In this document: piece after piece, positions 7,612 through 36,106 of the stretch
Numbering within the stretch: the first letter of the stretch is position 1
Layout of the letters: every line of letters begins with the position of its first letter
IMG/VR virus record: IMGVR_UViG_3300036981_000351
Location: 1-36,136 of that record
Direction: 5' to 3' (one strand)
From: a virus
DNA length: 36,136 nt
Program-made: the position numbers and the translations under genes
The notes under the pieces: generated by a model
The model's input: the letters and a program-made list of their open reading frames with translations, nothing else
Databases searched by the model: none
Told to the model about the DNA's origin: nothing

Positions 7612-10280
7612 TGGACCCCCACGCCGACGCTCCGGAACACGAAGTTCTGCACGTCATTGGTGACGACGATTCGCCACATCCGGTTAGTTCCGGCCGCAAG
7701 TCCGTTCGTAAAGCCATACCATGAACGCGTCCTGCCGCTCAGAAGCCCCTTGTCCTGCATCGGCACACGGGTCCATGTGTTGCTCCCGTCCAGCGATGCC
7801 TGCAGCGTCCAGTTGGTGAGATCACCCGCCGCAATGCCCTCCGTGAACGCCCAGGCGCTGATGGCTGTCGCGGGGGTGGTCAGCACCACGTTGCTCCCGG
7901 TGATGATGGGGGTTACCCCAACAGTGATGAGCTCAGCCTCGGTTGGCGCGGACCACATCGCGGCAGCTTCTGACAGGCTGATCACGCGATTCGTCCACAA
8001 CCGGAAGTCATCAAACTGTGCCCCTACTCCACGATACGCAGAAGCAGCAGGCGATCCCCCAAGTGCGAAAACTTTCGAGATGATAGGGTATATCGTTGTC
8101 GCAATCGCCCGATCCAGCGGCCAGTTTCCATTGGTCTGCCCATCGAGGTACGAGTACGTGCGCCCCTCGGTGATGTCGAGGACGGTGGTCAGGTGATGCC
8201 AAGTTGAGGTTCCATCGGCAAAGATGCCCATGCCAGTCCAGGGCCATCCGGCATAGCTGGTATCGGTATGGGACATCGAATTTCCGTTATATTCATACCA
8301 CACGCAGGACCAAGTCCCTGTGCCTCCGGTCGTGAGGCGATTTCCAATGACGTATGTACCATTCCCTCCGAAGTCGTCCATGCCGTCGAAACTGCAGATC
8401 GCAGTTTGCTGTCCATCAAGCAGACGAAACCAGTACGACCAAGACAATCCCTTCCGATTTTTGATGAAATCGTCGATCCCGTTGTTAGCTTGTCCGGTTT
8501 CGGGTCCAACAGTTGACACCTCCGACATGCTGAGAAAATAATTGGTTCCGTCTGCAGGATTTCCCGTGACCAAGTTCGGTATTTCCAGGGCCGCACCAAT
8601 CTTGCCTGCCACCGAACGCGGAGCCGTGTTGTTCGACGTGCTTTGTCGGTACAACATGCCATTCACCCAGCCCGTCACATTCGTTACTTTGGCGACCAAG
8701 TTGGATTCATTCAGCGGAAAGTGAAAAAGTTGGTTTCGCGCCAGATCGACATCGGCAGACAACAGAATCCCATCTGGGTTCAGGCTCCACGACACGCCGT
8801 TGGTCGTCACCATGCCAATCGGGTTCTCCCCCGCAACAGTGCGATTGAACGAATAGGAATCCGCTGACGTCAGCGGCGTGCTCAAAATGCCAGCGCGGAT
8901 CTCATCGGCCATGGCGTTGGCCAGAATGTCTGCGGCCAACGTCTTGTCCGCCAGTTCCCGATAGGTCTGCTCATTATTGATCGACGGGATTGACGCATTG
9001 ACGATTTCACGCCCCGCAAAATCCCATTTCCCCGCCGTGGTCATCTTCAAGGCCGGGTTGTACGCTTGATCGACTATCTCCACTACGCCGCCTTGGTTTG
9101 TGCCGGGCCATATCATGACGCCACCGCCCGACACCGTAATGCCGCCGTTCTGGCAATTCGTGTTGCCACCGGTCATGTAGAGCTGCTGGTTGTCTTCGTA
9201 GATCCTTCCACCGTCGTCGTTGAACACGAATTCATGGATATTGGTGATACGCGTAGCCTCAATGGTCGCCGCGGCTATGGCCTCACTCGCCCACCGTTCC
9301 GTTGCGATGGGCCACCAAATCGCACCGGACTGGTTAGTGTTCACGCAGAACTTGCCTGCCTTGGCGTTGACCTGCAGGCGCAGTTTAGAACTCACGTCAC
9401 GCCACCAGAATTCAACCGGGTGCGACGGGGCAAACGATCCCAGACTGCCGGTTTCGATGACCATGGAGGGCACCCCCTCATCGCCTCCATCCAGCACAAT
9501 GGTGTTGGTCGTGCTCCCGCCACGCCTGGTTGCCGTATCCAGCGTGTACAGCTCGTCGGTCAGGTAGGCCCCCACCGGCTGAAACGTCCCCGTGGCCCAT
9601 GATCGCAACCCATTCGTGGCAGCCACCAGATTGTTGGACACCACATTCAATCGATTCGACTCCGCCACGTCGTTGAGTCCGTTCACAGCCAATCCGTTCG
9701 TATCGCCGGATCCCCCCAGCCCAAACGGCGCCGAGGCGAGATTACTGTTTTCCACGGCTGCCCAATCGATGCTGGTCAGCGCGCGGAGCGGATTCGTGGT
9801 CGTCCCGCTGACGCTGCCAACAAGCTTGATCAGGCCGAGACCTCGCAGGGAGTTGCCGTTGGTGGTCGTGGCCGCGATCGTGTAGCCATAGGACGTGGCC
9901 GCGGCCTCCTGAGCCGGGGTCCACACCACCCGGATGCGACCCTCGGATGCACTTAACACGCTGCCGGTGGCGGCGTAATAGAGCCCCTCCGCCAGGGAGG
10001 AATCGCGATAGCGCAGCACGACGGCCACGACATTGGTCAGGGTCAGCGGCTCGCCATACGACAAATACTGGGGCTCCAGGTAGACCGTTTCGCCCCGCAC
10101 CAGTTGCAGCGCTTGCTGGGTTACACGCGACGTCTCAATCTCCCAGCGGATCGACGGGATCCCATCCGCCCTTGCAGTGGACAGGCACAGGCGCAGCAAT
10201 ACGGTCCAAAACAGCAGGCAGAATCCAACCATGCACATCCAGACGATCAACTGCTTCATCCTGGCCAAATACCTTTTCAT
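7608..10280 (-). CDS. Large exported fibre-like protein with LamG-type domain
   Basis: An 890-residue protein with an N-terminal basic/hydrophobic signal (residues 1..38, ending STARA-DG). The middle (about 180..480) has fibre-shaft-like Asn/Thr-rich repeats (TNGLAVNGLNDVAESNRLN, then GAYLTDELYTLD). Residues about 520..760 form a LamG/concanavalin-like jelly roll (FHFPLNES...GLSWSYWFRL...WHHLTTVLD...YLDGQTNG...FDDFRLWTNRVIS). A C-terminal discoidin-like beta region follows. LamG domains bind carbohydrate or protein ligands. It looks like a tail fibre by position and shaft, yet carries a Sec signal, so it may act at the host surface or in the periplasm. ATG 10280 overlaps the upstream stop. 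Confidence 0.65.
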   Translation of the reverse strand: MKRYLARMKQLIVWMCMVGFCLLFWTVLLRLCLSTARADGIPSIRWEIETSRVTQQALQLVRGETVYLEPQYLSYGEPLTLTNVVAVVLRYRDSSLAEGLYYAATGSVLSASEGRIRVVWTPAQEAAATSYGYTIAATTTNGNSLRGLGLIKLVGSVSGTTTNPLRALTSIDWAAVENSNLASAPFGLGGSGDTNGLAVNGLNDVAESNRLNVVSNNLVAATNGLRSWATGTFQPVGAYLTDELYTLDTATRRGGSTTNTIVLDGGDEGVPSMVIETGSLGSFAPSHPVEFWWRDVSSKLRLQVNAKAGKFCVNTNQSGAIWWPIATERWASEAIAAATIEATRITNIHEFVFNDDGGRIYEDNQQLYMTGGNTNCQNGGITVSGGGVMIWPGTNQGGVVEIVDQAYNPALKMTTAGKWDFAGREIVNASIPSINNEQTYRELADKTLAADILANAMADEIRAGILSTPLTSADSYSFNRTVAGENPIGMVTTNGVSWSLNPDGILLSADVDLARNQLFHFPLNESNLVAKVTNVTGWVNGMLYRQSTSNNTAPRSVAGKIGAALEIPNLVTGNPADGTNYFLSMSEVSTVGPETGQANNGIDDFIKNRKGLSWSYWFRLLDGQQTAICSFDGMDDFGGNGTYVIGNRLTTGGTGTWSCVWYEYNGNSMSHTDTSYAGWPWTGMGIFADGTSTWHHLTTVLDITEGRTYSYLDGQTNGNWPLDRAIATTIYPIISKVFALGGSPAASAYRGVGAQFDDFRLWTNRVISLSEAAAMWSAPTEAELITVGVTPIITGSNVVLTTPATAISAWAFTEGIAAGDLTNWTLQASLDGSNTWTRVPMQDKGLLSGRTRSWYGFTNGLAAGTNRMWRIVVTNDVQNFVFRSVGVGVQ

Positions 10281-20556: not shown

Positions 20557-22139
20557 ACCCGTCCAGCCTCCCGCGTCACGACCGCCTCCGCAAACCCATT
20601 GAACAGCGCCGCCGTCAAACTGTTTTCGAGCACGTCGGCCGTCTCAGAGCGGTTCAGGATCTGCGCATAGATCCGTGGCAGATCCCGCTGCAGCCCCTGC
20701 AGCGTGGCGATCGCGGCATCCATCTGGTCTTGATCGGCTGAGTTCAGGGCCTGCACCAGAACGTCGGTGATAGGCTTGAAGTCCCCGGCCTGCGCCTTGG
20801 CGAGCGACTCCTCGCCATTGGCCAGGAGCTGCAGCATCTTCCGATCGCCCAGCTCCGCGGCCGCCGTCGCCCGGTTCCGGCTCTTCACTTCCGCCTCTGC
20901 GTTCTTTGCGATCTTGGTGTTCAAACTCCGAATCCGATTCGCTCCGAACGCCTGCCCGAATGGTGTCGGCGCCACTGGCGCCTTGACGCCCAGGATCTTG
21001 TACCCCGTGCGCTCCGTCACCTCCGCCGGATCCAGCTCGAAGTACTGCGAGAGCGTCGCCACGTGCGTGACGATGGCGCTGATGTCTTTCTCCTCCTCAG
21101 CCGCCAGGTCGAAGTACGCCAGCACTGGCTTGCCCGGAAAAGCCTTGGCCAGCTTGCGCTTGTCGATGGTGCTCTGGAACAACTCCGAAAGCTTCGCGCC
21201 CCGCGAGCGGGCGATCATGCGGAACGCCTCCATGTGCGCCCCGCCGGCCAGTGTGCCGCTGCCGCTCTCCGCCAGCACCGTCAGCAGGCCGCCCGTGGCC
21301 ACCATCACCAGCTTCTTCGTCAGGTGATCCAGGCGCAGGTCGAACGGCTGCGTTCCGCGGGGACTATCGGCCGCCTTCGCGTCCGAGCCGTTCGGCAGCG
21401 ATCCTCCCCCGCCGCCGGCGATGCGTTCCGCCGCCTCGCGGAATTCCGCTTCCTTGCCGGCGGCCACGTTGGGCGGGTCGATAATGATCCAACTCGGGAT
21501 GCCATAGATCTCGATGTACCCGTCCCAGTCCTTTTCGGACATGTTGCCACGGATGAACTTGATCAGGCCCACGCGGTCAATCGGCCGGCGCACCTCGTGG
21601 ACGATGATCTCGTCCGCGCCCAGGCGATTCGCCGCCGGCAGATTCTGGCCCGCCACGTTCTTGGCCTCGGGATTCCAGAACCAATCGCCCGCCCGTCCCT
21701 CCCTGGCAAAGTTCCAATGGTCGAACAGTTCCAGGTGGATCACGTCGCCGGCGCCGTCCAGGTGCGGCTGCCCGATGGAGAAGCCCCGGAAGGCCGCCAG
21801 CTCAAAGTGGTCGATCGCTTCATAGAGGTTGTCAATGCGCCCGTACTCCTCGCGCAGCGCCTCGGCCTGGGCATCGGCCAGGGCCTGGTCGAAGCCGGCG
21901 GACTTGGGATCCACCGTCTTGATGAAGTAGTCCATCTCCGCGATCGCGGCCGTGCGCCGTTCCACCAGGGTCACCAGGTCGGCGTCCGTCTGCTCGATGA
22001 ACTCGTAGGTCCATTGCAGATCCGCCAGCGCCCCGCGCTGCGACGACTCCAACAGCGACACCGCCCGCTGAATCGTGAGCCCGCGCAAGGGATTCAGCGT
22101 GTCGCGCCAGGCATTCGTCTTGGCAACCAGGTCTCTCAC
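20553..22139 (-). CDS. Portal protein (DUF935, Mu gp29-like)
   Basis: A 528-residue protein starting at GTG 22139, coupled to the terminase stop by a GTGA overlap with AGGAG 9 nt upstream. DUF935 features include DADLVTLVERRTAAIAEMDY in the N-terminal wing, the AFRGFSIGQPHL block, GLIKFIRGNMSEKDWDGYIE and GIPSWIIIDPPN. The long helical C-terminal domain carries the clip/crown. It forms the dodecameric DNA gate at the capsid vertex. A Gly-rich insert (GGGGGS) lies near residue 285. Confidence 0.9.
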   Translation of the reverse strand: MRDLVAKTNAWRDTLNPLRGLTIQRAVSLLESSQRGALADLQWTYEFIEQTDADLVTLVERRTAAIAEMDYFIKTVDPKSAGFDQALADAQAEALREEYGRIDNLYEAIDHFELAAFRGFSIGQPHLDGAGDVIHLELFDHWNFAREGRAGDWFWNPEAKNVAGQNLPAANRLGADEIIVHEVRRPIDRVGLIKFIRGNMSEKDWDGYIEIYGIPSWIIIDPPNVAAGKEAEFREAAERIAGGGGGSLPNGSDAKAADSPRGTQPFDLRLDHLTKKLVMVATGGLLTVLAESGSGTLAGGAHMEAFRMIARSRGAKLSELFQSTIDKRKLAKAFPGKPVLAYFDLAAEEEKDISAIVTHVATLSQYFELDPAEVTERTGYKILGVKAPVAPTPFGQAFGANRIRSLNTKIAKNAEAEVKSRNRATAAAELGDRKMLQLLANGEESLAKAQAGDFKPITDVLVQALNSADQDQMDAAIATLQGLQRDLPRIYAQILNRSETADVLENSLTAALFNGFAEAVVTREAGRV

Positions 22140-23533
22140 GCCAGCACGCTCCTGTCTCGCCGCGCCGCCAGCGCCTGGACCACGCGGCCGCTGTCGAACG
22201 CGTGGGGCATGCTGGCCTCGCCGGACGATTTGCCGGCATGTTGCGCGAGGGCCTTGGCCCAGAAACGATCCGAGTGGCCGTTCTTGCCGCGATCGGCGGT
22301 AAAGCGGATGTTGCCGGAGGCCGTCGTTTCCTTCTTGATCGCGCGGAAGTCGGCCCGGATCCTGGCATCGCTGGGGATCCGCAGGCTCTTGTCCTCGCAC
22401 GCGGCGCGCACCGGGTAGGCCAGCTCCTCCTTCACCGGGCCGGTGAAGGTGACCGCCTCGACCTTGTAGGCGCCGAAGCGCTGCTGGGCCCGCTCCGCGA
22501 ATTGGCGCCCGATGCCGGTGTTGTCGATGCAGCAGCGCCGCACCTGGGGCAGCTCCAGGATGGCGTAGAGTTCCGCCTCCTGGGCCTCGAAGGTCTGGGC
22601 CTGCAGGCAGATCACCTTGCGGGTCAGCATCACGCCGCCGACCTTCTCGTCCACCCAGATCACCGTCAGGTCATGCTCGCGGCCTACGTCCACGCCGACA
22701 TAAAGCGGGTTCTTGATGTCGTCGAGCGGCTTTTCCCAGACTTCTCCCGGGGCATATTCACAGCCGATGATCAGGTCGTAGGAGAGAAACGCCGCGTTGT
22801 CGTCGGACGGCACGCACATGTACTCCTGGAGGAAGGTCTCCTCGTCGGCGCAGCCGGAGCGGATGAAGTCGAAATAGGCGGCGTTGTCCATCGCCTGGCG
22901 CGCGTCCTCGGGCGGCAGCTTGGCCTTGAGCTTGTCCAGGAACCCTTGTTCCAGCGCGTCCTGCAGCGTCACCCGGTGCAGCGAAAAACCCTTGGGGTTT
23001 CCCTTTTCCCGCACCTCGTTGACCAGGTCGTTGAAGAAGTTGGCGCTGCCCCGGTGCGTCGAGATGATCGCCAGCGACCCGCCCCAGGTGATGCCGGGGT
23101 ATGCGATGGCGTACAGCTTGCGCGGGTCCGGGTGCAGCGCGAACTCGTCCAGCTTGCGGTGGCCGCGCTTGCCCGCCTGCGCGTCCGGGTTGCTGCTCAT
23201 GGAGTTGATGCGCTTGCCGTTGTCGAACTCGATCACGTAGGAGCTGTTGCGCGCCTCGTCGATCACGCGTTCGCCCAGGTCCTTGGCGGCCACGTGCAGG
23301 ATGCCTGCAAAGCTCTTGCAGTCCTCCAGGTACAGCCGCGCCTGGATATCGTCGCGGGACGAAACCCACGTATCCGACCGCGCCCCCTTGGGGGCCGTGT
23401 TAGAAACGTCCTCATAGGCTGATGCCCATGAAATCCCAATCTGCCGGGCCTTCTCCATGATCTTCAGGCGCGCCTTGTCCTTGATCCAGGAAGCCTGGTA
23501 CGGCAGAAAGAAGTTTTTCGGGGCGGCGCTCAT
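22136..23533 (-). CDS. Terminase large subunit (Mu gp28-like)
   Basis: A 465-residue DNA-packaging motor. The ATPase half has a Walker A-like EKARQIGISW (27..36), the variant typical of gp28 terminases, and a Walker B RKLDEF (127..131, Asp129-Glu130). The RNase H-like nuclease half begins with YVGVDVGREHDLTVIW (catalytic Asp about 282) and has later acidic residues (CCIDNTGIG). The start overlaps the small-terminase stop by 4 nt. Length and motif order are normal, so it should be functional. Confidence 0.92.
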   Translation of the reverse strand: MSAAPKNFFLPYQASWIKDKARLKIMEKARQIGISWASAYEDVSNTAPKGARSDTWVSSRDDIQARLYLEDCKSFAGILHVAAKDLGERVIDEARNSSYVIEFDNGKRINSMSSNPDAQAGKRGHRKLDEFALHPDPRKLYAIAYPGITWGGSLAIISTHRGSANFFNDLVNEVREKGNPKGFSLHRVTLQDALEQGFLDKLKAKLPPEDARQAMDNAAYFDFIRSGCADEETFLQEYMCVPSDDNAAFLSYDLIIGCEYAPGEVWEKPLDDIKNPLYVGVDVGREHDLTVIWVDEKVGGVMLTRKVICLQAQTFEAQEAELYAILELPQVRRCCIDNTGIGRQFAERAQQRFGAYKVEAVTFTGPVKEELAYPVRAACEDKSLRIPSDARIRADFRAIKKETTASGNIRFTADRGKNGHSDRFWAKALAQHAGKSSGEASMPHAFDSGRVVQALAARRDRSVLA

Positions 23534-25323: not shown

Positions 25324-25736
25324 TCGAAATCCACCTTGAAGCCATTGCCGCACGCCTGACAGGTATTCATTCCGGACCGCAGAGTGCTTATTAGAATCGG
25401 ATGACGACACGATGGGCACGGCTGGGTCTTGGCGGCAGCGGATGTACGGCGGTCCCAATCATCTACCGGATCAAGCACAGCGGCTTTACGGAGCGGTGGA
25501 GCCTCTCTGATGATTCCACGACAATGCGGGCAAATTGAAGCTTCAGGCTGGATCGCCTCCGCGCAGTGCGGACATTTCAGTCTGGCGTCTTTCAGACAAA
25601 ACGCAATCAGGCATCCAATAGGCCCAAGCAGGAATCCGAACAATGCTCCCGCGCCTGGTCGCTCGCGACGGCTACCGATCAATGCACCGAAAAGCGTCCA
25701 CAGTGTGCACCAGAACACATAAATAACCGCATTCAT
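25320..25736 (-). CDS. Membrane protein with two zinc ribbons
   Basis: This 138-residue protein starts at ATG 25736, overlapping the RHH stop. Two N-terminal transmembrane helices (AVIYVFWCTLWTLFGALIGS and GALFGFLLGPIGCLIAF) are followed by a zinc ribbon of the double-CxxC form (CPHC...CPHC, about residues 56..74) and a second ribbon (CPSC...CQAC, about 108..130). Such tethered zinc-ribbon proteins are widespread and of unknown function. It forms a three-gene unit with the RHH regulator and the small membrane protein. Confidence 0.65.
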   Translation of the reverse strand: MNAVIYVFWCTLWTLFGALIGSRRERPGAGALFGFLLGPIGCLIAFCLKDARLKCPHCAEAIQPEASICPHCRGIIREAPPLRKAAVLDPVDDWDRRTSAAAKTQPCPSCRHPILISTLRSGMNTCQACGNGFKVDFE

Positions 25737-26029
25737 TCGGTTTCTACTTCCGTCTTGTTCTTTCGCTTCTGCCCAATTCTCGCTCGCGGCTCTGGTTTTT
25801 CTGGTCGCTGGCTCGCATACCGATGTGTGCGGCCATCCATATCCTTTACGATCTCTTTCCAATTCAGGGGTAGACCTGACGCTCCATGCTGGCGGAGATG
25901 CGATAGGAAGCTCCGCACGCATAACTTGATTACGTCGCTACGGTTTTCAAGTCCTAGGCGCTGAGCCGCTGCTTCCATTTCTCCGATCATTTCCGTACTG
26001 AAGCGCACCGGTATGTTTCGGCTACTCAT
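25733..26029 (-). CDS. Ribbon-helix-helix regulator, leftward
   Basis: A 98-residue protein with an N-terminal RHH (CopG/Arc-like) DNA-binding fold: strand NIPVRFS, helix EMIGEMEAAAQRLGL, turn ENRS, helix DVIKLCVRSFLSHL (residues 4..45). A basic tail of about 50 residues follows. It is homologous to the divergent gene at 26114 (shared pattern IP-[VI]-RF, GL, RS, IKL-VR). The GGGACGGG run before ATG 26029 is an acceptable ribosome site. It is the first leftward gene, next to a palindromic operator, so autoregulation and control of the lysogenic/late side are likely. Confidence 0.75.
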   Translation of the reverse strand: MSSRNIPVRFSTEMIGEMEAAAQRLGLENRSDVIKLCVRSFLSHLRQHGASGLPLNWKEIVKDMDGRTHRYASQRPEKPEPRARIGQKRKNKTEVETE

Positions 26030-26113
26030 CCCGTCCCTACTGTATAGCGCCTATTCAAAAAGAGACATAATTTTCTTGTTGCCTTTTGTGTAGCGATGCT
26101 ACACAGTAGCCCC
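26030..26113. promoter_or_regulatory. Divergent control region with palindromic operator
   Basis: An 84-bp intergenic region between two divergently transcribed RHH genes. It contains the perfect palindrome TGTGTAGC-gat-GCTACACA at 26087..26105, close to the rightward ATG, and a related half-site TGTATAGC at 26041..26048 next to the leftward start. AT-rich DNA in between could hold back-to-back promoters; TATACA near 26040 on the minus strand is a possible -10. RHH dimers bind such palindromes in pairs. Confidence 0.65.
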
Positions 26114-26335
26114 ATGGTAAGCAAATCGATACCCATTCGCTTCGACCAGGCGAGCATCGATGAGATCGACACAATCTCCGCAATGTTCGGACTGACCAGG
26201 TCGGCACTAATCAAGCTGTCGGTACGCCTGCAGGTTCGTAGTTTGCGATCCGGTCACACAGACCTGCAGTCCCTGATACAGGGAGTGAGGATTGGAAATG
26301 GTTCTGGCTCATTGGACAAGAGAGGTGCCCGATGA
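26114..26335 (+). CDS. Ribbon-helix-helix regulator, rightward
   Basis: This 73-residue protein starts at ATG 26114 (MVSKSIPIRFDQ). The RHH core is strand SIPIRFD, helix ASIDEIDTISAMFGL, turn TRS, helix ALIKLSVRLQVRSL, clearly related to the leftward RHH protein. It is the first gene of the early rightward operon and overlaps the next gene by 4 nt. No cI-, c- or Ner-like repressor is visible in the element, so this pair is the best candidate for the lysogeny switch. Confidence 0.75.
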   Translation: MVSKSIPIRFDQASIDEIDTISAMFGLTRSALIKLSVRLQVRSLRSGHTDLQSLIQGVRIGNGSGSLDKRGAR

Positions 26336-26769
26336 CCCTCACCGCCCCAGAATCCCCGCGTCAGGACTCCCAGGGCGGCGGGATGGGTATGAGCAGGAAC
26401 ACGACGGCGCAGGCCTCCTCGGCAATGGTACCGGGCGTGACGGGTCCCCTGGAGAATACGAGCGCGACGAGTATCCCCCAACCGCAGCAGCGCGCCAGCA
26501 AGACGGTTCCGATCCACCGCCACCTGGATCGCCTGTTTGTGGTGTTGATCGTGCTTACGGGTTGCTGCGGCGTCGTTGTGCTGGCCTGCGCTCTTTTCCA
26601 GAGCCTTTTGACCCAAAGCACGAAACCGATACAGGCCGCCGCAGCCACCATCGTGGATTTGATGGCATCGCCCATCATGCTGATGCTCTGGCAGATCTTG
26701 GAAAAAGTTTCCAGCACGTCCCCCTCCGCAGGCTCCGACGCTATCAAACCCCCGGAGGCCCGGCAATGA
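26332..26769 (+). CDS. Small membrane protein of the early operon
   Basis: This 145-residue protein starts at ATG 26332 (AGAGGTG 5 nt before; ATGA overlap). The first 60 residues are Pro/Ser/Thr-rich and disordered. One strong transmembrane helix follows (about 67..90, LFVVLIVLTGCCGVVVLACA), then a helical region (TIVDLMASPIMLMLWQILEK) that may be a second membrane segment. A minus-strand frame with hydrophobic segments exists over the same bases, but the coupled start favours this one. Function is unknown. Confidence 0.55.
   Translation: MTLTAPESPRQDSQGGGMGMSRNTTAQASSAMVPGVTGPLENTSATSIPQPQQRASKTVPIHRHLDRLFVVLIVLTGCCGVVVLACALFQSLLTQSTKPIQAAAATIVDLMASPIMLMLWQILEKVSSTSPSAGSDAIKPPEARQ
26749..26769 (+). 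repeat. 21-bp direct repeat, copy 1
   Basis: Identical to 27318..27338. It covers the end of the small membrane protein gene, a GGAGG-containing ribosome site and a TGA/ATG junction. The two copies bound the 26770..27317 segment that carries an opposite-strand gene. Confidence 0.85.
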
Positions 26770-27194: not shown

Positions 27195-27338
27195 GAAATA
27201 ATCGCTGGGCTGTCTTGTCTGCTCGCAGTTGCACTTGGGGGATGCGCCTTGCTATCCCGACCGCTGCCCGACTACAGCATGTGGAGCACACCCCCCTCAC
27301 GCGCCAAATCTACCACCCCCCCGGAGGCCCGGCAATGA
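27193..27338 (+). pseudogene. Lipoprotein gene with apparent 1-nt deletion
   Basis: From about 27196 the plus strand encodes a lipoprotein-like sequence, IIAGLSCLLAVALGGC (lipobox ALGGC), followed by a Pro/Ser/Thr-rich tail ending PPEARQ at 27338. No start codon is in frame. The only well-placed ATG (27193) is followed by three A's and hits TAA at once; one extra A would give MKIIAGLS... in frame. This suggests a single-base deletion in an A-run, or a sequencing/assembly error. The intact product would resemble a small Rz1-like or other lipoprotein of about 48 residues. Confidence 0.45.
27318..27338 (+). repeat. 21-bp direct repeat, copy 2
   Basis: Exact copy of 26749..26769. It supplies the ribosome site and CAATGA junction for the helix-turn-helix gene that starts at 27335. 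The duplicated junction suggests insertion of the intervening DNA into a contiguous early operon. Confidence 0.85.
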
Positions 27339-27640
27339 AGGCCTCCATCTTCGATCCGCCTCCAGCACCAGCCGCCAAGCTCTCCCCCCTGGATCCACCC
27401 ACCCAGCTTCAGCTCTTCGACAAGGACATCAGCCTGCCATGGTCAAAGGCCTTCCTCCGGGTGGGGGAGGTGGCCCAGTTCCTGGACGTTTCCGAGGACC
27501 AGGTCTTCCGCCTGATCGAGGCGGGCGAGCTGGAGACCATTTCGATTTCCGCCAACGTCGCCACCGCCGAGCGCCAGCACCCGCGCGTCTCCGGCCGCAG
27601 CCTCCACGCCATGGTCAACCGCCGCCGAAAGCTTTCGTAG
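27335..27640 (+). CDS. Helix-turn-helix (excisionase/MerR-like) protein
   Basis: This 101-residue protein starts at ATG 27335, where GGAGG from the direct repeat gives a good ribosome site. Residues 41..72 form a classic excisionase-type winged HTH: FLRVGEVAQFLDVSEDQVFR then LIEAGELETIS. The N-terminal 35 residues are Pro/Ala-rich and the C-terminus is basic (NRRRKLS). It is probably a DNA-binding regulator or architectural factor of the early region. No integrase is present, so a classical excisionase role is unlikely. Confidence 0.7.
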   Translation: MKASIFDPPPAPAAKLSPLDPPTQLQLFDKDISLPWSKAFLRVGEVAQFLDVSEDQVFRLIEAGELETISISANVATAERQHPRVSGRSLHAMVNRRRKLS

Positions 27641-28038: not shown

Positions 28039-28410
28039 CTAGTTCTTCTGCCCATACCGCGCCGTGGCCCATTGGATGGATTGATCCATCCAAAAATCAA
28101 CCAGCCCCAGTTCCAACATATCTGCCTGGGGAAGATCGCACTTCCGTCCTCGGGCGTGTTCCGTCCGAAACAAGTCCAGCGCCAGTTCAATCCGCAGATG
28201 AACTTGCGCGCGGATGTTGTCCGCCATCGGCGGCCAGCTTCCTCGCTCGATATACGCCCGGCAAGCTTCGGTCGCGGCGCATATTTCGCGAAATGGTATC
28301 GCGCCTATCCAGCCAGGGATTCCTGCTGGAAAAACAGGGGCTGGACTATTCGCTACCTCATGGCTGGCTGATGCCAGCAGCGTCAACAGCCTCGCATACG
28401 TTGTGTTCAT
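28039..28410 (-). CDS. Opposite-strand hypothetical, second moron candidate
   Basis: This 123-residue protein has a strong ribosome site (GGGAGG 5 nt before ATG 28410). It is mainly helical with four cysteines and a charged C-terminal part (RIELALDLFRTEHARGRKC, then ELGLVDFWMDQSIQWATARY). A short apolar stretch at the N-terminus (ARLLTLLASAS) is too weak for a sure signal peptide. It is tail-to-tail with the preceding early gene and divergent from the next, leaving only 37 bp for a promoter. An opposite plus-strand frame over the same bases is low-complexity and not credible. Confidence 0.6.
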   Translation of the reverse strand: MNTTYARLLTLLASASHEVANSPAPVFPAGIPGWIGAIPFREICAATEACRAYIERGSWPPMADNIRAQVHLRIELALDLFRTEHARGRKCDLPQADMLELGLVDFWMDQSIQWATARYGQKN

Positions 28411-28447: not shown

Positions 28448-29182
28448 ATGAGCAAGCCCTCCGTTCATACGCCCGAAGTCCTCCCCCCCGCGCGCAAGGG
28501 CAAGAGCACGGCCGTCGCGGTCGTGACGCCAGCCGACGAGTACGCCGCCCGGGTGGTGGCTTTCGAGGTGTCCGCCGAGCAGCACGCCAGCGCGGCGGTC
28601 TACTGCGCGGCCGCGGCCGGCGCCGTGATGATCCAGAAGAAGGCCGTGGCGGCGCATGGGGAGTTCCTGCCCTGGCTGGAAAAGCTGCGCCTGCCGGATG
28701 GCCGTTACATCCAGGTGCGAACCGCTCAGAATTACATGCGTCTGGCCGAAGAAATGGCGGAACGCATCCTCTCCATGCCAAATACGAAACGCGTTTCGTA
28801 TTTGGGCAAGGGGGACACCGACGGCAAGACATCGGTGCTGGAATTGCTGGCCAAACTGGACTCCAGCAAGGCCGACGAACTGCACCGGTCGGCCATTGCT
28901 GAGGCCGTTCGGGAGATCACGAGCGAGTCCAACCTGCGCCAGCTCTATTTCGACTGGGGCATCTGCAAGAAGCCCAAAACCCTCGGCGGCGCCCGCCCCG
29001 GACCGTCCCCCGACATCGACAAGGCTCAGGTCTACGGCGCCTGGTGGGCCGAGAAGATCAGCGAGCTGTATGGGTACGCCGTCACCGCCAAAACGCAGGT
29101 CCACTTGAAGCAGATCCAGATCAAGGAAATGCACGGCCTGCTGGTCGATATCACCGCCGCCTTCAAGGAGCTTATTCAATGA
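28448..29182 (+). CDS. DUF3102-like protein upstream of the transposase
   Basis: This 244-residue protein has CAGGAG 8 nt before ATG 28448. The core HGEFLPWLEKLRLPDGRYIQ followed by VRTAQNYMRLAEEM is the hallmark of DUF3102-type proteins, which occur on phages and plasmids and are thought to be replication or partition accessories. The C-terminal 60 residues form a helical region. A perfect 28-bp palindrome lies inside the gene at 28778..28805. The stop overlaps the transposase ATG (ATGA), so the two are coupled. Confidence 0.65.
   Translation: MSKPSVHTPEVLPPARKGKSTAVAVVTPADEYAARVVAFEVSAEQHASAAVYCAAAAGAVMIQKKAVAAHGEFLPWLEKLRLPDGRYIQVRTAQNYMRLAEEMAERILSMPNTKRVSYLGKGDTDGKTSVLELLAKLDSSKADELHRSAIAEAVREITSESNLRQLYFDWGICKKPKTLGGARPGPSPDIDKAQVYGAWWAEKISELYGYAVTAKTQVHLKQIQIKEMHGLLVDITAAFKELIQ
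28778..28805. promoter_or_regulatory. Perfect 28-bp palindrome inside a coding sequence
   Basis: The arm CCAAATACGAAACG is followed without any spacer by its exact reverse complement. The ACGAAAC core also occurs in the transposase-site pair at the right prophage end (GCACGAAAC). It sits about 375 bp before the transposase start. It may be an internal transposase/repressor site comparable in position to the Mu internal activating sequence, or an operator. Confidence 0.55.
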
Positions 29183-31254
29183 TCGCTCCCGTCTTCTTGC
29201 TGGTACCGGGCACGGATGACCTCGTCGAGTTTGGCAAGCTGCCCGACGTGCTCAAGTCCGAGTTCGACCTATGGGAAAACGTGATGAAGCGGCTGTTCGC
29301 ATCCGAAAGGCCGGCCCGCGAGATTAAGATAGTGGCGCACGAAATGCGCGGCGTTCTGGGCTTCTCCGCCGAATCGATCGAGCGCAAATACTACGCGGTC
29401 AAGAACGGCGGCTCCTGGCGCGTGCTCGTCAATCGCAACAAGTTGACGGGCCGCCGGGCGGATAGCGGCATGACGGCGGCCGTGGTGCAGGCCTGGCACG
29501 AGACGCTGGCGCGCCACCAGCGCAAGTGCAAGCCGGCCTATCGCGAAATTCTGCGGCGGTACCGGGCCGGCGAAACGATTGGCGACGTGGGCTGGCAAAA
29601 GGTCTGGAAGCAGCGCCACCCGCACACAGAGCTGCCCAGCGCCTGCCCACCGGACATGCCCCTGCCGGATGGCTGGAGCTACGACAGCTTCATGCGCAAG
29701 CAGCCCAAGCGCGCCGACCTGGTGGCCGTCCGGATCGGAGAAAAGGCCGCGCAGCAATACCGCTACCAGGTCCACACCACGCGCAATGGGATCCACGTGG
29801 GCGAGGCCTACGTGTTCGATGATATGTGGCACGACCTCAAACTCAACTTCGTGGGGCAGACGGCCAGCGTGAGGCCGTTGGAATTGGGCGGCGCGGATGT
29901 CTTCAGTGGCTACAAGTTTGACCCAGGCTTCCGCCCGCGCCGCGAGCGCCAGGACGGTACGCGCGACGGCCTGGGCGAGCGCGACATGCGGCTCTATCTG
30001 GCGCACGTGCTTTGCAACATCGGCTACTACAAGGGCGGCTGCACGCTCTACGTGGAACACGGCACGGCCGCGATCGCCAAGCACCTGGACGCCGTTCTCG
30101 ATAAATTCTCCGGCGGCATGATCAAGGTCCAGCGCTCAGGCATCGAGGGCGTCAAGCAATACGCCCAGCTCTATTCCGGCAAGGGCGCCGGAAACCCGCG
30201 CCTCAAGGCCGGTTACGAATCCCTGCACAACCTGGTGCACAACGAGGTCGACGCGCTCCCCGCCCAGACCGGCATGGACCGGGCTCACACGCCCGAGTCG
30301 CTGTATGGTCGAGACGCGATCAACACCAAGCTGCTGGTCGCGTGCTACGCGCTCACGCCCGCCCGCGCCAGTTTGCTGCGCTTCCCGGTGATGGAGTGGG
30401 GCGTTGGCATCGACGCGATCATGCACGCCTATTACAACATGAACCGCCGCACGGACCACGAGCTGGAGGGCTGGATCACGGCCAAGCTGGTGAAGCATCA
30501 GTTTCGCCTCGGCCCCGCGTTCCCCTGGCAGGATCACCGCGAGCTGGATCTGCTGGACGATGCGCATCGCGGCGCCGTAGAAGCCATCATCACCCTGCCG
30601 GATTATCACCAGATCATTCGCATGTCCCCCTTTGACGTGTGGTCCGCCGGCCAAACCGACTTGGTCAAGTTGCCCCTGCATGTGCTGCCGCTAATTTGCG
30701 GCGAGGATCTGTCAACGGTCCGCACCTGCCCGCCTTCCGACCAGATCGATTTCATGGATATCTCCGTTAGCCCGGATCCGATGTACTTCGAAACCCGCGT
30801 CACCACCGCCGAGGGTTTCGACAAGCGCCTGCAGGAGGGACGCGAGTACCGCTGGCTGATCAACCCCTTCGACTCCCGGCAGTGCTTCGTCAGCGAAACC
30901 AACGGCTCCTACCTTGGCACCGCGCGGCGCTGCAATGTGCCCTGCAAGACTGATGCAGACGCCCTGCACCGCGAGATGGGCGTCGCCGCGAAGCACGAGA
31001 AAGAGGCCGCCCTGCGCCTCACCGCCATGAATCGCCCCGAGATCAAGCGCCGCATCGCCGAAGCGGAGCACAACGCCGCGCTGATGAATGGCGACCCGAT
31101 GCTCGCCGAAGAAATTGCCGAGCTGAACGACCGCAAGGCGCGCCACGCGGCCACCGAGGGCGACTACCGCGACCTGGCCTCCACGCTCGTGCGCGCCCCC
31201 GGTTCCGCTGACTCCGCCTATGGCGTGAGCATGGACGAACTCCGCGATCTCTGA
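29179..31254 (+). CDS. MuA-like DDE transposase
   Basis: A 691-residue transposase, close to MuA length (663). The N-terminal 100 residues include an HTH-like site-binding part (FSAESIERKYYAVKNGGSWR). The catalytic RNase H-like core starts near residue 207. Candidate catalytic acids are Asp214/215 (YVFDDMWHD), Glu293 in YVEHGTA where the family usually has Asp-Asn/His-Gly-Thr, and Glu347 (GYESLHNLVHNEV). A beta-barrel-like domain and a charged helical tail follow, matching MuB-contact regions. It performs strand transfer for replication and integration. ATG 29179 is coupled to the upstream stop. Confidence 0.88.
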   Translation: MIAPVFLLVPGTDDLVEFGKLPDVLKSEFDLWENVMKRLFASERPAREIKIVAHEMRGVLGFSAESIERKYYAVKNGGSWRVLVNRNKLTGRRADSGMTAAVVQAWHETLARHQRKCKPAYREILRRYRAGETIGDVGWQKVWKQRHPHTELPSACPPDMPLPDGWSYDSFMRKQPKRADLVAVRIGEKAAQQYRYQVHTTRNGIHVGEAYVFDDMWHDLKLNFVGQTASVRPLELGGADVFSGYKFDPGFRPRRERQDGTRDGLGERDMRLYLAHVLCNIGYYKGGCTLYVEHGTAAIAKHLDAVLDKFSGGMIKVQRSGIEGVKQYAQLYSGKGAGNPRLKAGYESLHNLVHNEVDALPAQTGMDRAHTPESLYGRDAINTKLLVACYALTPARASLLRFPVMEWGVGIDAIMHAYYNMNRRTDHELEGWITAKLVKHQFRLGPAFPWQDHRELDLLDDAHRGAVEAIITLPDYHQIIRMSPFDVWSAGQTDLVKLPLHVLPLICGEDLSTVRTCPPSDQIDFMDISVSPDPMYFETRVTTAEGFDKRLQEGREYRWLINPFDSRQCFVSETNGSYLGTARRCNVPCKTDADALHREMGVAAKHEKEAALRLTAMNRPEIKRRIAEAEHNAALMNGDPMLAEEIAELNDRKARHAATEGDYRDLASTLVRAPGSADSAYGVSMDELRDL

Positions 31255-31282: not shown

Positions 31283-32389
31283 ATGGAACAACACACAGAG
31301 CCGTCGGCTGCCGATATCGAAGCCTTGGACCGCGAAGCGGAAGGCACGAACGGCGTCAACATCAGCCGGCAGACCGTCACCAAGCACACTGAGCACCTGC
31401 CCGAAGAACAGAAGCTCCTGTTGCGCTGGTGGTACACGATCGCGCGCGATAACCGCTGGCGCCCAAATGATCTGGCCACGTTCAGCGGGCTCGACTACAC
31501 CACGCTGCATCGCGTTTGGCACGACCGTTACGTCAACAACGCCACCGGCGAGCGCGTACCGCTCACCAGCCTATGCAAGAAGCTGGAGGCGGCCAAGAAG
31601 ACCTACCTTCAGGATCACCCGGCGGCCCGGATAGGCGATCACCCCTTTGTCAATACCTCCGTCTGGGACCGCATCGACTGGCTCTGCAAGAAGGTGGCGA
31701 AGCGCAAGAAGATCGGCTTCATCTATGGTGAGAGCCACATCGGCAAGACCGAGTGCCTGCTGAATTATCAGCGCCATAACAACCACGGCATGACCGCCTA
31801 CTTCGAGCTGCCCCCCTCGGGCGGCGTCCAGTTCATGACCCGCCGCCTGGCCAAGTCTCTGTACGTCGGCGGCAACCAGTCCTTCGACAAGACCCTCGAA
31901 GGCATCGTCGCGGCCGTGGACAGCGACATGCTGATCATCGGCGACCAGGTGCACCGGATCTTCTACAGCTACCAGCACAGCTCGGTCATGCGCTGCCTGG
32001 ACACGCTGATGTACATCCACGACCAGACGCACTGCCCAATGGTGCTCTGTGGCACCAACGTCTGGCGCGACGAGCTGCGCGAGGGAAAACTCAAGCAGTA
32101 CCTCAAACAGCTCCGCCGGCGTGGCCTCTACGAGATCCAGCTCCCCGCCGCGGCCCCCTTCGATGACCTCGTCCTGATCGCGAAGGAGTACGGCCTCGAC
32201 GCCCCCGAGGGCGAGGCCCTGAACCTCGCCAGCGCCATCGCCCGCAATGACGGTCTGGCGATGTACTTCACCCGCCTGCAGGACGCTCAGGAGATGGCCG
32301 AGAAGAAGTCCACCAGCCTCACCTGGGACCACTTCGCCAAGGCCGTCACCATCGCCGAAAAAATGGCCAACGGGCCGGATAGAAAATAG
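31283..32389 (+). CDS. MuB-like transposition target-selector AAA+ ATPase
   Basis: This 368-residue protein is preceded by AAAGGG. The N-terminus has an HTH (RPNDLATFSGLDYTTLHRVW, about 60..79) as in MuB. AAA+ motifs are Walker A GESHIGKT (149..156), Walker B MLIIGDQ (216..222, with Gln in place of the usual catalytic Glu) and a sensor-like CGTN (about 256..259). MuB binds DNA non-specifically, delivers targets to MuA and protects the element from self-insertion. The DQ variant could lower ATP turnover. Confidence 0.85.
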   Translation: MEQHTEPSAADIEALDREAEGTNGVNISRQTVTKHTEHLPEEQKLLLRWWYTIARDNRWRPNDLATFSGLDYTTLHRVWHDRYVNNATGERVPLTSLCKKLEAAKKTYLQDHPAARIGDHPFVNTSVWDRIDWLCKKVAKRKKIGFIYGESHIGKTECLLNYQRHNNHGMTAYFELPPSGGVQFMTRRLAKSLYVGGNQSFDKTLEGIVAAVDSDMLIIGDQVHRIFYSYQHSSVMRCLDTLMYIHDQTHCPMVLCGTNVWRDELREGKLKQYLKQLRRRGLYEIQLPAAAPFDDLVLIAKEYGLDAPEGEALNLASAIARNDGLAMYFTRLQDAQEMAEKKSTSLTWDHFAKAVTIAEKMANGPDRK

Positions 32390-32397
32390 TTCCAATC

Positions 32398-32847
32398 ATG
32401 ATCGCCGTCGACACAGACTTCTATTTCCCGGCCATCCGTGAGCTGCTGAGGAACGCCTACGGCCAGGCGCGCGCCCTCACCCTTGACCAGCTCACGGAGG
32501 CCGTCTGTGCCCCCTGCCGGCGCATCACGGAGCAAACCATCGAAGCGCATCTGTCCGAGTTCGGGTTCGCCCTGGTCGCTGGCTGTCACGGCTACTGGCG
32601 TCCCATGAAGGCCGACGAACTCAACCAGTACGTCAGCAGCCTTCACAGCCGCCACCGCCGCATGCAACTCCGCGAGCAGACCATCATCCGCCTGGCGTTG
32701 CAGGAAGGCTTCACTCTGGATGGCGAACTTTTCGTCGACGCCCCCACCCGTCAAATAGAAATGCCCCTGCTGGATCCACGCGCCCGCTTTCCAGCAGACG
32801 TCTCCAACTCCGAATCAGAGAAACACAACAAAGGAACCCGCCCATGA
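32398..32847 (+). CDS. Hypothetical early protein, winged-helix-like
   Basis: A 149-residue protein with a helical N-terminal half (PAIRELLRNAYGQARALTLD then RRITEQTIEAHLSEFGF) followed by YWRP and basic helices. The pattern could be a winged helix, fitting an early regulatory or replication accessory role. No Shine-Dalgarno is visible before ATG 32398, 8 nt after the ATPase gene, so translation may depend on coupling. It overlaps the DUF3164 gene by 4 nt. Confidence 0.55.
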   Translation: MIAVDTDFYFPAIRELLRNAYGQARALTLDQLTEAVCAPCRRITEQTIEAHLSEFGFALVAGCHGYWRPMKADELNQYVSSLHSRHRRMQLREQTIIRLALQEGFTLDGELFVDAPTRQIEMPLLDPRARFPADVSNSESEKHNKGTRP

Positions 32848-33437
32848 TCACCGACAACATGCTCAAAGACAGCCGCGGCCGCCTCGTCCCCGTGGACCAG
32901 GTCCGACCCATCGACCTCGAACGAGACGACCTCGTCCGCCGCATCACCGCCCGCTTCGAACTCGTCCGCAGGGTCTGCACGGAGTTCCGCACCTGGGCCG
33001 ATCAGGAAATCGACGCCTTCCTGCAGATTTCCCAGGAGCGCTACGGGATCAAGTCCGGCGGCCAGGTCGGCAACCTGACGTTGACGACCTACGACGGTGA
33101 AATCCGCATCCTGCGCGCCGTCCAGAAGCAGCTCGCCTTCACCGACGAGATTCATGCTGCCAAGCGCTTGATCGACGAATGCCTGGTCGAATGGTGCCAG
33201 GGCGCGAAGCCCGAGCTGAAGGCTTTGGTGGACGACGCCTTCAAGACCGACACCAAGGGCGACCTGGCCGCGGACCGCGTCCTCGGCCTGCGCCGCCTCA
33301 AGATAGAGGATCCGCGCTGGAAGTTGGCCATGGAAGCCATCGCCGACAGCATCCAGGTCACCGCCACCCGCGCCTACATCCGCTTTTACCGGCGGCAAGC
33401 CGATGGCTCCTATAACCACGTGCCGGCGGGGGTCTGA
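32844..33437 (+). CDS. DUF3164 family protein
   Basis: A 197-residue protein with AAAGGA 8 nt before ATG 32844. The opening (MLKDSRGRLVPVDQVRPIDLERD), here in two parts of the family pattern, is followed by GGQVGNLTLTTYDGEIRILR, KLIDECLVEWCQGAKPELK-like helices, and a terminal RFYRRQADGSYNHVP, all diagnostic of DUF3164. The family is a constant companion of MuA/MuB in Mu-like phages. Its role is unknown but probably in replicative transposition or early host takeover. Confidence 0.85.
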   Translation: MITDNMLKDSRGRLVPVDQVRPIDLERDDLVRRITARFELVRRVCTEFRTWADQEIDAFLQISQERYGIKSGGQVGNLTLTTYDGEIRILRAVQKQLAFTDEIHAAKRLIDECLVEWCQGAKPELKALVDDAFKTDTKGDLAADRVLGLRRLKIEDPRWKLAMEAIADSIQVTATRAYIRFYRRQADGSYNHVPAGV

Positions 33438-33440
33438 GCC

Positions 33441-33833
33441 ATGAAAACCCTCTGCATCGCCCTTGCAGCGCTCCTGTCCATAGGCTCCGCAGCCCACGCC
33501 GGCGACATTAAGCTGGCCTGGGACGCCCCCACGAACAACGTAGACGGCTCGCCGTTGATCGACCTGGCCGGATACCGGGTCCGCTACGTGCCCGTCGTGG
33601 TTGCGTACAGCGAGGCCACGAACGGCGTCATCACCTGGATGGTGGTCAGCACCAGCGCGGCCCCCACGACGGTCTGGACCACCAACACGAGCCTCGCGCT
33701 CACGATCCCATCGACGGTCTACAGCTTCACCGTCGCGGCCGTGGCCGGCCTGGGAGTCGAGAGTGCCCCCTCCAGCAACGTCCTCTCCCGCGTGGGCTCC
33801 CCCACCACACTGAAACTGCAGCGGGTGAAATAG
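33441..33833 (+). CDS. Secreted fibronectin-III-like protein
   Basis: A 130-residue protein with a textbook signal peptide (LCIALAALLSIGSAAHA, cleavage before GD). It then carries one Fn3-like domain: IKLAWDAPTN, GYRVRYVPV, and a final TVYSFTVAAVAGLGVESAPS strand pattern. A secreted single-Fn3 protein in an early operon is unexpected. It could modify the lysogen or infected cell surface, or bind incoming phage or neighbours. It follows DUF3164 by 3 nt and overlaps the next start by one base. Confidence 0.7.
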   Translation: MKTLCIALAALLSIGSAAHAGDIKLAWDAPTNNVDGSPLIDLAGYRVRYVPVVVAYSEATNGVITWMVVSTSAAPTTVWTTNTSLALTIPSTVYSFTVAAVAGLGVESAPSSNVLSRVGSPTTLKLQRVK

Positions 33834-34408
33834 TGGAAACCACCACGACCAAGCCGCGCTACCCGCTGGCCGATGCCTTGGCCATTGCGAACAGCCTTGT
33901 TGGCCTGCTGGAGACCTGGTGCGAGCGGATCATCATTGCCGGGTCAATCCGCCGACGAAAGGCAACCGTGGGCGACATCGAGCTCGTCTACGTACCCAAG
34001 ATGGCTGACATCCAGGACCCCGACAACATGTTTATGAAGATCCCGGCGCCCACGATTGATCTGGTCATTCGCGGTCTGGAGTCGCAAGGCATCCTCGGTC
34101 GCCGCCTCAACATCAAAGGGTCGGAAACCTACGGCCCGCGCAACAAGCTGATGCGGCACATCCGTTCCGGGATCGGCGTCGACCTGTTCGCCACTACTGA
34201 GGCGTGCTGGTTCAATTACCTCGTATGCCGCACCGGCGGGTCCGTCAGCAACATCGCAATCGCCAGCGCCGCCCAGCGCCTGGGCTTTCGCTGGAACCCC
34301 TACGGCCCCGGCTTCTCCCGCTACGGCGACATTCGCCCCATGCCGACCGAAGAAGCCGTCTTCGCCTTCGTCGGCCTCCCCTACAAAGAGCCCTGGGAAC
34401 GCGAGTAA
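33833..34408 (+). CDS. Minimal DNA polymerase X-like nucleotidyltransferase
   Basis: This 191-residue protein starts at GTG 33833, sharing the G of the upstream TAG. It has the family-X palm signature IAGSIRRRKATVGDIELVYV (about 35..54), with metal ligands Asp48 and Glu50 (usually two Asp), and a third acid in GVDLFAT (Asp117). The polX thumb pattern follows: RTGGSVSNIAIASAAQRLGF, WNPYGPG, then TEEAVFAFVGLPYKEPWERE. The 8-kDa and fingers domains of full polX are missing. It may fill gaps left by Mu-type strand transfer, or add nucleotides to DNA ends. Catalysis is unproven. Confidence 0.75.
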   Translation: METTTTKPRYPLADALAIANSLVGLLETWCERIIIAGSIRRRKATVGDIELVYVPKMADIQDPDNMFMKIPAPTIDLVIRGLESQGILGRRLNIKGSETYGPRNKLMRHIRSGIGVDLFATTEACWFNYLVCRTGGSVSNIAIASAAQRLGFRWNPYGPGFSRYGDIRPMPTEEAVFAFVGLPYKEPWERE

Positions 34409-35578: not shown

Positions 35579-36106
35579 AGCTGCTTGCGGCGGGTGTTTA
35601 CCGAGGAGCGCTACCTCGAGGCCGGCGACAAGGTGCCGGTGTCGAGCCACGGCGTCATCATGGTCCGGCAGCCCGATCAGATGACGCTCGAATGGATCGG
35701 GGAGTTGCGTGACCAGCGGGTGGACTACAACGGGAAGTCGGTGACGGTGACCGAGCATCAAACCGCCAAGTCCCTCAGCCTTGAGGCCCCGCCGCGGCTG
35801 GAAGACATGCTCCCCAAATTCAAGGCGCAGCATGACCTGCACATGCCATTTGGCGACTTGCTCCAGCGCGACGCGTTCGACGTGCTTTCGCTAGGCCTGA
35901 AGTCGGCGGAATACGTCGGCCTGCGCAAGGTCAACGGCGTGGATTGCCACCAGCTGGCCTTTGCGCAGGACGATCTTGACTGGGCGCTCTGGGTTCAGGC
36001 GGGCAGCCAGCCGCTGCCGATGAAGATCACCATTGACTACAAGACGGCGACGCAGAATCCGCGCTACCGTTGGGAATGCCGCAAGTGGGAAGTTGCGGCC
36101 CCGTAG
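35579..36106 (+). pseudogene. 5'-truncated DUF2092-family periplasmic protein gene
   Basis: From the prophage junction an open frame continues to TAG at 36106. It matches the DUF2092 family (predicted periplasmic lipid/outer-membrane-related proteins): VIMVRQPDQMTLEWIGELRD, VDYNGKSVTVTEHQ, LEAPPRLEDML, SAEYVGLRKVNGVDCHQLAF, DWALWVQAGSQPLPMKI. The signal peptide and first 50..70 residues expected of the family are absent. TTG 35585 could start translation but lacks a ribosome site. The C-terminus also stops early, at WEVAAP, where relatives usually continue about 25 residues. This is most simply host DNA interrupted by the prophage. Confidence 0.65.

Follow-up and report, generated by a model that had tools for sequence, protein, structure and literature searches.

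Our analysis makes it probable that a Mu-like phage uses a divergent pair of ribbon-helix-helix (RHH) genes in this DNA as its lysogeny switch; the two regulators would read the same operators in the manner of c/Ner or CI/Cro. Lysis-lysogeny switches are textbook cases of gene regulation and the best known of them rest on helix-turn-helix (HTH) proteins. An initial annotation had proposed a candidate switch with CI/Cro-like logic built on RHH folds. Comparison across related loci supports that proposal: the pair replaces HTH regulators and does not occur together with them, four homologues of the protein on the late side carry a Peptidase_S24 (S24) domain, the partners share recognition residues and operator repeats are found in a subset of the loci.

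The window, by which we mean the whole stretch of DNA analysed, is the complete IMG/VR record of 36,136 bases. Its G+C content is 62% and its gene set, according to Pfam and PHROG matches, is Mu-like. The plus strand carries a DUF3102-like early gene (28448-29182), a MuA-like transposase (29173-31254; phrog_310), a MuB-like AAA protein (31283-32389; phrog_296, TniB) and a DUF3164 protein (32844-33437). On the minus strand lie the morphogenesis genes and the terminase large subunit (22136-23533), presumably Mu gp28-like, which served as the anchor for finding syntenic relatives. RHH_R (E; 26114-26335, plus strand, 73 amino acids) is the first gene of the transposition operon and stands in the position of Ner or Cro. 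RHH_L (L; 25733-26029, minus strand, 98 amino acids) heads the opposite unit in the position of c or CI and is the proposed repressor. The gene after E (26332-26769, plus strand) overlaps the E stop codon (ATGA) and encodes a 145-residue protein with a hydrophobic segment, seen by eye; neither Pfam nor PHROG places it in a family with confidence. A Pfam scan of 20 window proteins, which very divergent examples may escape, brought up no HTH repressor of the c/cI type; the initial annotation had named the two RHH proteins as the only visible candidates at the divergence of the two transcription units. An HTH_17 excisionase-like early gene (27335-27640, plus strand) was considered and is unlikely to be the switch repressor, because homologues, or genes similar by eye, are present in RHH and HTH loci alike.

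RHH_L and RHH_R are 41% identical over 46 residues (E = 3e-8 for the pair and 1.5e-4 when the whole record is searched), and the initial description of two homologous RHH genes diverging over 84 bp was also right in its coordinates. Neither of the two proteins matches Pfam alone, and all ten of the relatives scanned from the syntenic position match RHH_1 (E = 5e-8 to 0.023), as do six of ten in a further scan of relatives. An RHH sequence profile finds ORF56, RelB, ParG, CopG and PutA. The model of RHH_L, built from a 12-sequence alignment, has an extended N-terminus followed by two helices, with a core pLDDT of about 95. In the PDB it most resembles NikR, PutA and CopG (Foldseek probability 0.89-0.99, E = 0.27-0.6), the weak E-values being usual for a 40-residue domain. 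These proteins resemble ours in the fold of the DNA-binding domain, although they are not phage switches and have other accessory domains. On the RHH_1 matches of the relatives and the predicted RHH_L monomer, we assign RHH_L and RHH_R to the RHH (MetJ/Arc) superfamily. An alternative in-frame ATG for RHH_R at 26096 lies inside the palindrome described next; the homologues fit the start at 26114.

We propose that the 84 bp between the genes (26030-26113, 45% G+C) contain the two promoters and the two operators. The candidate operator O_E (26087-26105), 8 bp before the E start codon, is a perfect palindrome, TGTGTAGC-gat-GCTACACA (in full TGTGTAGCgatGCTACACA), with an extended half-site on the minus strand at 26098-26109. 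Beside the L start lies a second candidate, O_L (26041-26057), a degenerate palindrome TGTATAG-cgc-CTATTCA. Its extended half-site on the plus strand (26037-26048) repeats that of O_E in inverted orientation, with one mismatch. The A+T-rich spacer between the two (26049-26086, 31.6% G+C) is the proposed promoter region; a sigma-70 scan of the gap returned no promoter. The best palindrome in the gap beats dinucleotide shuffles (p = 0.014), and a search of the window for TGTGTAGCgatGCTACACA with up to three mismatches gave one occurrence, where 0.08 would be expected. A palindrome and a diverged half-site had been noted at the outset; the sequence was given correctly, and the diverged copy, CTACTGTATAGC against CTACTGTGTAGC on the other strand, is itself significant (p = 0.013). 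With up to two mismatches the whole window has three copies of the half-site motif, all within the 84 bp gap, a count that is unremarkable by itself since 13 of 100 shuffles gave at least three.

Relatives were gathered with the terminase. The terminase query gave 13 relatives and a terminase alignment gave 80 loci from each of two collections, viral and genome contigs. Transposase, DUF3164 and RHH_R patterns in viral contigs yielded nothing useful, nor did transposase, RHH_R and RHH_L queries in the phage collection; an A6 query in viral contigs gave no result. From 169 loci we retained 22, in addition to the window, in which the transposase diverges from the terminase; the other 147, with no detectable Tnp(-)/Ter(+) layout, were left unclassified. 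The 23 syntenic loci comprise nine with a divergent RHH pair, 11 with an HTH regulator, three in which neither was recognised and none with both. RHH homologues are present in exactly those nine intervals, always as a divergent pair in the orientation of the window (18 of 18 matches). These homologues were first detected by phmmer seeded with proteins read from these loci, and the E-values of the RHH profiles used for the syntenic and census scans are not independent because the profiles were built partly from the same proteins. In L008 and L082 the HTH-seed matches fall within over-long ORFs, and these two loci were given no class; the overlap is still zero if they are counted as HTH. The mutual exclusion has a hypergeometric probability of 2.7e-4 with kinship ignored, and on the terminase tree the RHH and HTH states need six changes, at least three of them forced by well supported branches. 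L003, the nearest relative (terminase 75% identical), likewise has an RHH pair, whose late-side member bears the C-terminal motif of RHH_L. In one further Mu-like locus, L210, a third RHH gene (9744-10028) lies directly 3' of the E gene.

A census was chosen independently of the RHH genes: a transposase alignment run against 384 genomes of a single class matched 39, which provided 40 upstream regions. Divergent RHH pairs were found in seven and HTH or S24 matches in 18 (one of these, L343, is doubtful), both together in none and neither in 15. Four of the last group are shorter than 2.5 kb, and another, L326, has an L-type RHH protein with no detected divergent partner. The initial annotation had proposed a search for the same pair in related prophages; RHH pairs are present in 9 of 23 loci, the window included, and in 7 of 40.

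The late-side proteins of several relatives carry the domain found in the CI and LexA repressors. In L038, a Mu-like locus, this protein combines RHH_1 with S24 (2.8e-12) and its C-terminal half matches LexA structures; a single-sequence model of the protein reached a pLDDT of 33. The census supplied a second RHH-S24 fusion, in the Mu-like prophage L319 (3.9e-12), and in two integrase-type prophages, L260 and L259, such a fusion stands opposite a small RHH gene. The RHH part of L259 rests on a custom profile, not on Pfam, and the integrase of L260 was assigned by eye with no Pfam match. At the place of L, the syntenic locus L009 has an HTH protein with S24 (1.4e-12). In Mu-like phages HTH-S24 c repressors are reported to accompany mitomycin induction (PMC8541194). 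Given the RHH-S24 fusions, the HTH-S24 protein of L009 and this link to mitomycin, we take the repressor role to belong most likely to the late-side protein, whose DNA-binding head varies in fold. The window's own RHH_L has no Peptidase_S24 domain in Pfam, so that it must be induced in another way than its counterparts in L038 and L319. Akkermansia phage Chambord was considered as an isolated RHH-S24 phage and was not counted; its repressor starts with an HTH-like segment. Akkermansia-type S24 repressors with an HTH-like start and a middle part that looks RHH-like by eye are encoded in that phage (L261, 5770-6570) and in L235-L240 and L277-L282. Separately, L284/L223 (G321) has a protein of L type that closely resembles the RHH segment of L260 and ends with no S24 domain, possibly through domain loss.

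An indication that the two proteins would read the same DNA comes from the recognition strand, of which we take positions 1, 3 and 5 to face the DNA, after the CopG and Arc structures. Over 12 pairs (L066, a near-copy of L065, was omitted) these positions are more alike between cognate than between mismatched partners, with BLOSUM62 scores of 2.25 versus -0.15 (p = 1e-5). The seven independent census pairs gave 1.71 versus -0.75 (excess 2.46, exact p = 0.0014), compared with 0.32 (p = 0.19) at buried strand positions and 0.42 (p = 0.0012) in the helices. Strand registers were first set by hand and the MAFFT register gave the same result. Two classes of pair are to be distinguished. In the class of the window the helices also show some cognate excess, and we take recent common descent to explain part of the partner similarity there because of it. 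In the other class, of six pairs, the helices have E-E, L-L and cognate scores of 2.05, 1.79 and 1.18, respectively, with no cognate excess (0.02, p = 0.42). E and L are here old separate lineages and the recognition strand alone tracks the partner, the contacts still matching with an excess of 1.68 (p = 0.0028). The duplication suggested by the initial annotation fits the window's class, where the partners are alike in their helices too, and is less well supported for the other class.

Similar RHH pairs also occur in bacterial chromosomes away from phage genes. Among 19 further regions, four with a transposase match beside the pair (L210, L212, L219 and L221) were kept as Mu-like and seven (L211, L213, L214, L216, L217, L218 and L220) formed a control set; in the other six the profile detected no complete divergent pair, and these were set aside. 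The seven divergent pairs from non-phage chromosomal settings show no contact sharing (-0.52, p = 0.17). The last two of the 19 regions, L222 and L223, were joined with L259 and L260 as an extra phage or S24 class. In these four pairs the excess has p = 0.21; L260 and L223 do not share contact residues, which limits the rule of cognate contact sharing. In L260 the operator is repeated exactly though the contact residues differ between the partners. Among the chromosomal pairs, those of L213, L214, L216 and L220, from Verrucomicrobiota genomes, have no phage genes around them and mismatched strands; those of L216 and L220 adjoin response-regulator-like genes.

The candidate operators were examined across the same loci. 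In seven of the 12 loci the E start has beside it, at a distance of 0-12 bp, a palindrome that exceeds shuffles at p < 0.05, and such a palindrome does so in three of the seven census loci; the combined p-values are 4e-8 and 0.005. Recurrence of the E-side element at the L side reaches p < 0.05 in four of 12 (the window, L003, L014 and L118) and in four of seven (L308, L324, L335 and L342), with Fisher combined values of 0.0027 and 8e-5; in the other eight and three loci, respectively, the repeat is not significant. Other RHH proteins use tandem sites. Some of our pairs may do the same, or their start codons may have been wrongly chosen, because no palindrome stands out in five of the 12 and four of the seven loci.

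Our model of the switch is as follows. L, in the role of c or CI, would bind O_E and O_L and so keep the early promoter closed. E, in the role of Ner or Cro, would bind the same operators, shut L and tune the early operon once transposition has started. As the recognition strands match, we infer that the paralogues compete for the operators; both would read the same half-site, and their relative level and affinity would decide the outcome. The S24 domain on L of some relatives would allow the repressor to be cleaved after DNA damage, and L of the window would be inactivated in some other way, as is Mu c. The arrangement resembles Mu c/Ner in position, in divergence, in setting the first early gene against an opposing repressor and in having operators, here predicted, between them; it differs in using RHH proteins where Mu c/Ner and the HTH-S24 c repressors of Mu-like phages are HTH proteins. 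With lambda CI/Cro it would share the logic of two regulators with a common fold that contend for the same operators, and S24 in some L proteins. It differs from lambda in fold and in having two operators that flank the promoters rather than OR1-3, and these phages are no relatives of lambda.

We considered whether each RHH protein might act only on its own operon through its own operator, with neither competition nor a switch. RHH proteins are commonly autoregulators and several loci have no shared operator. Against this, near-identical operators are predicted at both starts in the window, L014, L118, L260, L324 and L335, and cognate partners share recognition residues with no similarity in the helices in one class, a sharing replicated in seven pairs. 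On this evidence two independent autoregulators are unlikely. Antitoxins or partition proteins of the ParG, RelB or CopG type, forming an addiction or maintenance module, would account for the weak Pfam matches that some relatives have to RelB, ParG and CopG antitoxin. Two opposed RHH genes are not what such a module predicts, HTH regulators replace the pair in synteny, and neither a toxin nor a ParA family was recognised by Pfam or PHROG among the scanned neighbours; a toxin-antitoxin identity was rejected for want of a recognised adjacent toxin family, and we regard the whole explanation as very improbable.

A closer parallel is phage P22, in which the Arc/Mnt pair controls an antirepressor in a second immunity region, immI, and the Arc and Mnt operators differ. 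By analogy, the pair here might control an accessory gene such as an antirepressor or a moron, the true repressor lying elsewhere, and the gene after E (26332-26769), with no confident family, would be a candidate. The pair nevertheless takes the place of HTH regulators where the primary c/Ner genes would lie, co-occurs with them in none of the 23 and 40 loci, has E at the head of the transposase operon and an L that can carry S24, and is accompanied by no c/cI-like HTH repressor in the Pfam scan of window proteins. A secondary module of this type is thus quite unlikely. Arc and Mnt are described as homologous RHH repressors of phage immunity (PMC7549136), with a secondary immunity region under their control (PMC7549136, PMC8022706), and SP-beta YosL, a predicted RHH protein, is discussed beside them (PMC10516654). 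Arc/Mnt is a partial precedent for an RHH pair in phage immunity. Like ours it is a homologous RHH repressor pair; unlike it, our pair stands at the proposed primary switch, with E opening the transposition operon and with recognition residues common to both partners, and some of its relatives carry S24. In the partly accessible literature searched, with subscription journals mostly outside it, we found no recognised account of an RHH pair as primary lysogeny switch or of an RHH-S24 repressor.

Returning to the switch, we favour, with moderate confidence, a wider reading at the level of the phylum, in which Verrucomicrobiota phages, Mu-like and integrase-type alike, would take CI/Cro-type decisions with two RHH paralogues whose strands co-evolve with drifting shared operators. 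These would include RHH-S24 repressors (in effect CI on an RHH head, probably SOS-cleavable), and HTH and RHH modules would have been exchanged repeatedly at one position. An unrelated fold in both switch roles at the same locus, exchanged back and forth, would be a natural replicate of switch evolution. The pairs would also illustrate partner co-evolution cleanly, in that paralogues of long standing keep matched DNA-contact residues as the rest diverges. In practice, the finding can guide the search for repressors in phages of Verrucomicrobiota; annotation that relies on HTH domains would miss those of the RHH type.

Three other features of the window were observed. A gene in the opposite orientation within the early operon (28039-28410, minus strand) recurs in L014 (2376-2804) and L006 (4265-4702) and is possibly a moron. 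The early region also encodes a protein resembling the thumb and palm of DNA polymerase beta (33833-34408). At the very end of the record lies a gene for a DUF2092 predicted periplasmic protein (35585-36106; 6.6e-39), possibly in flanking host DNA.
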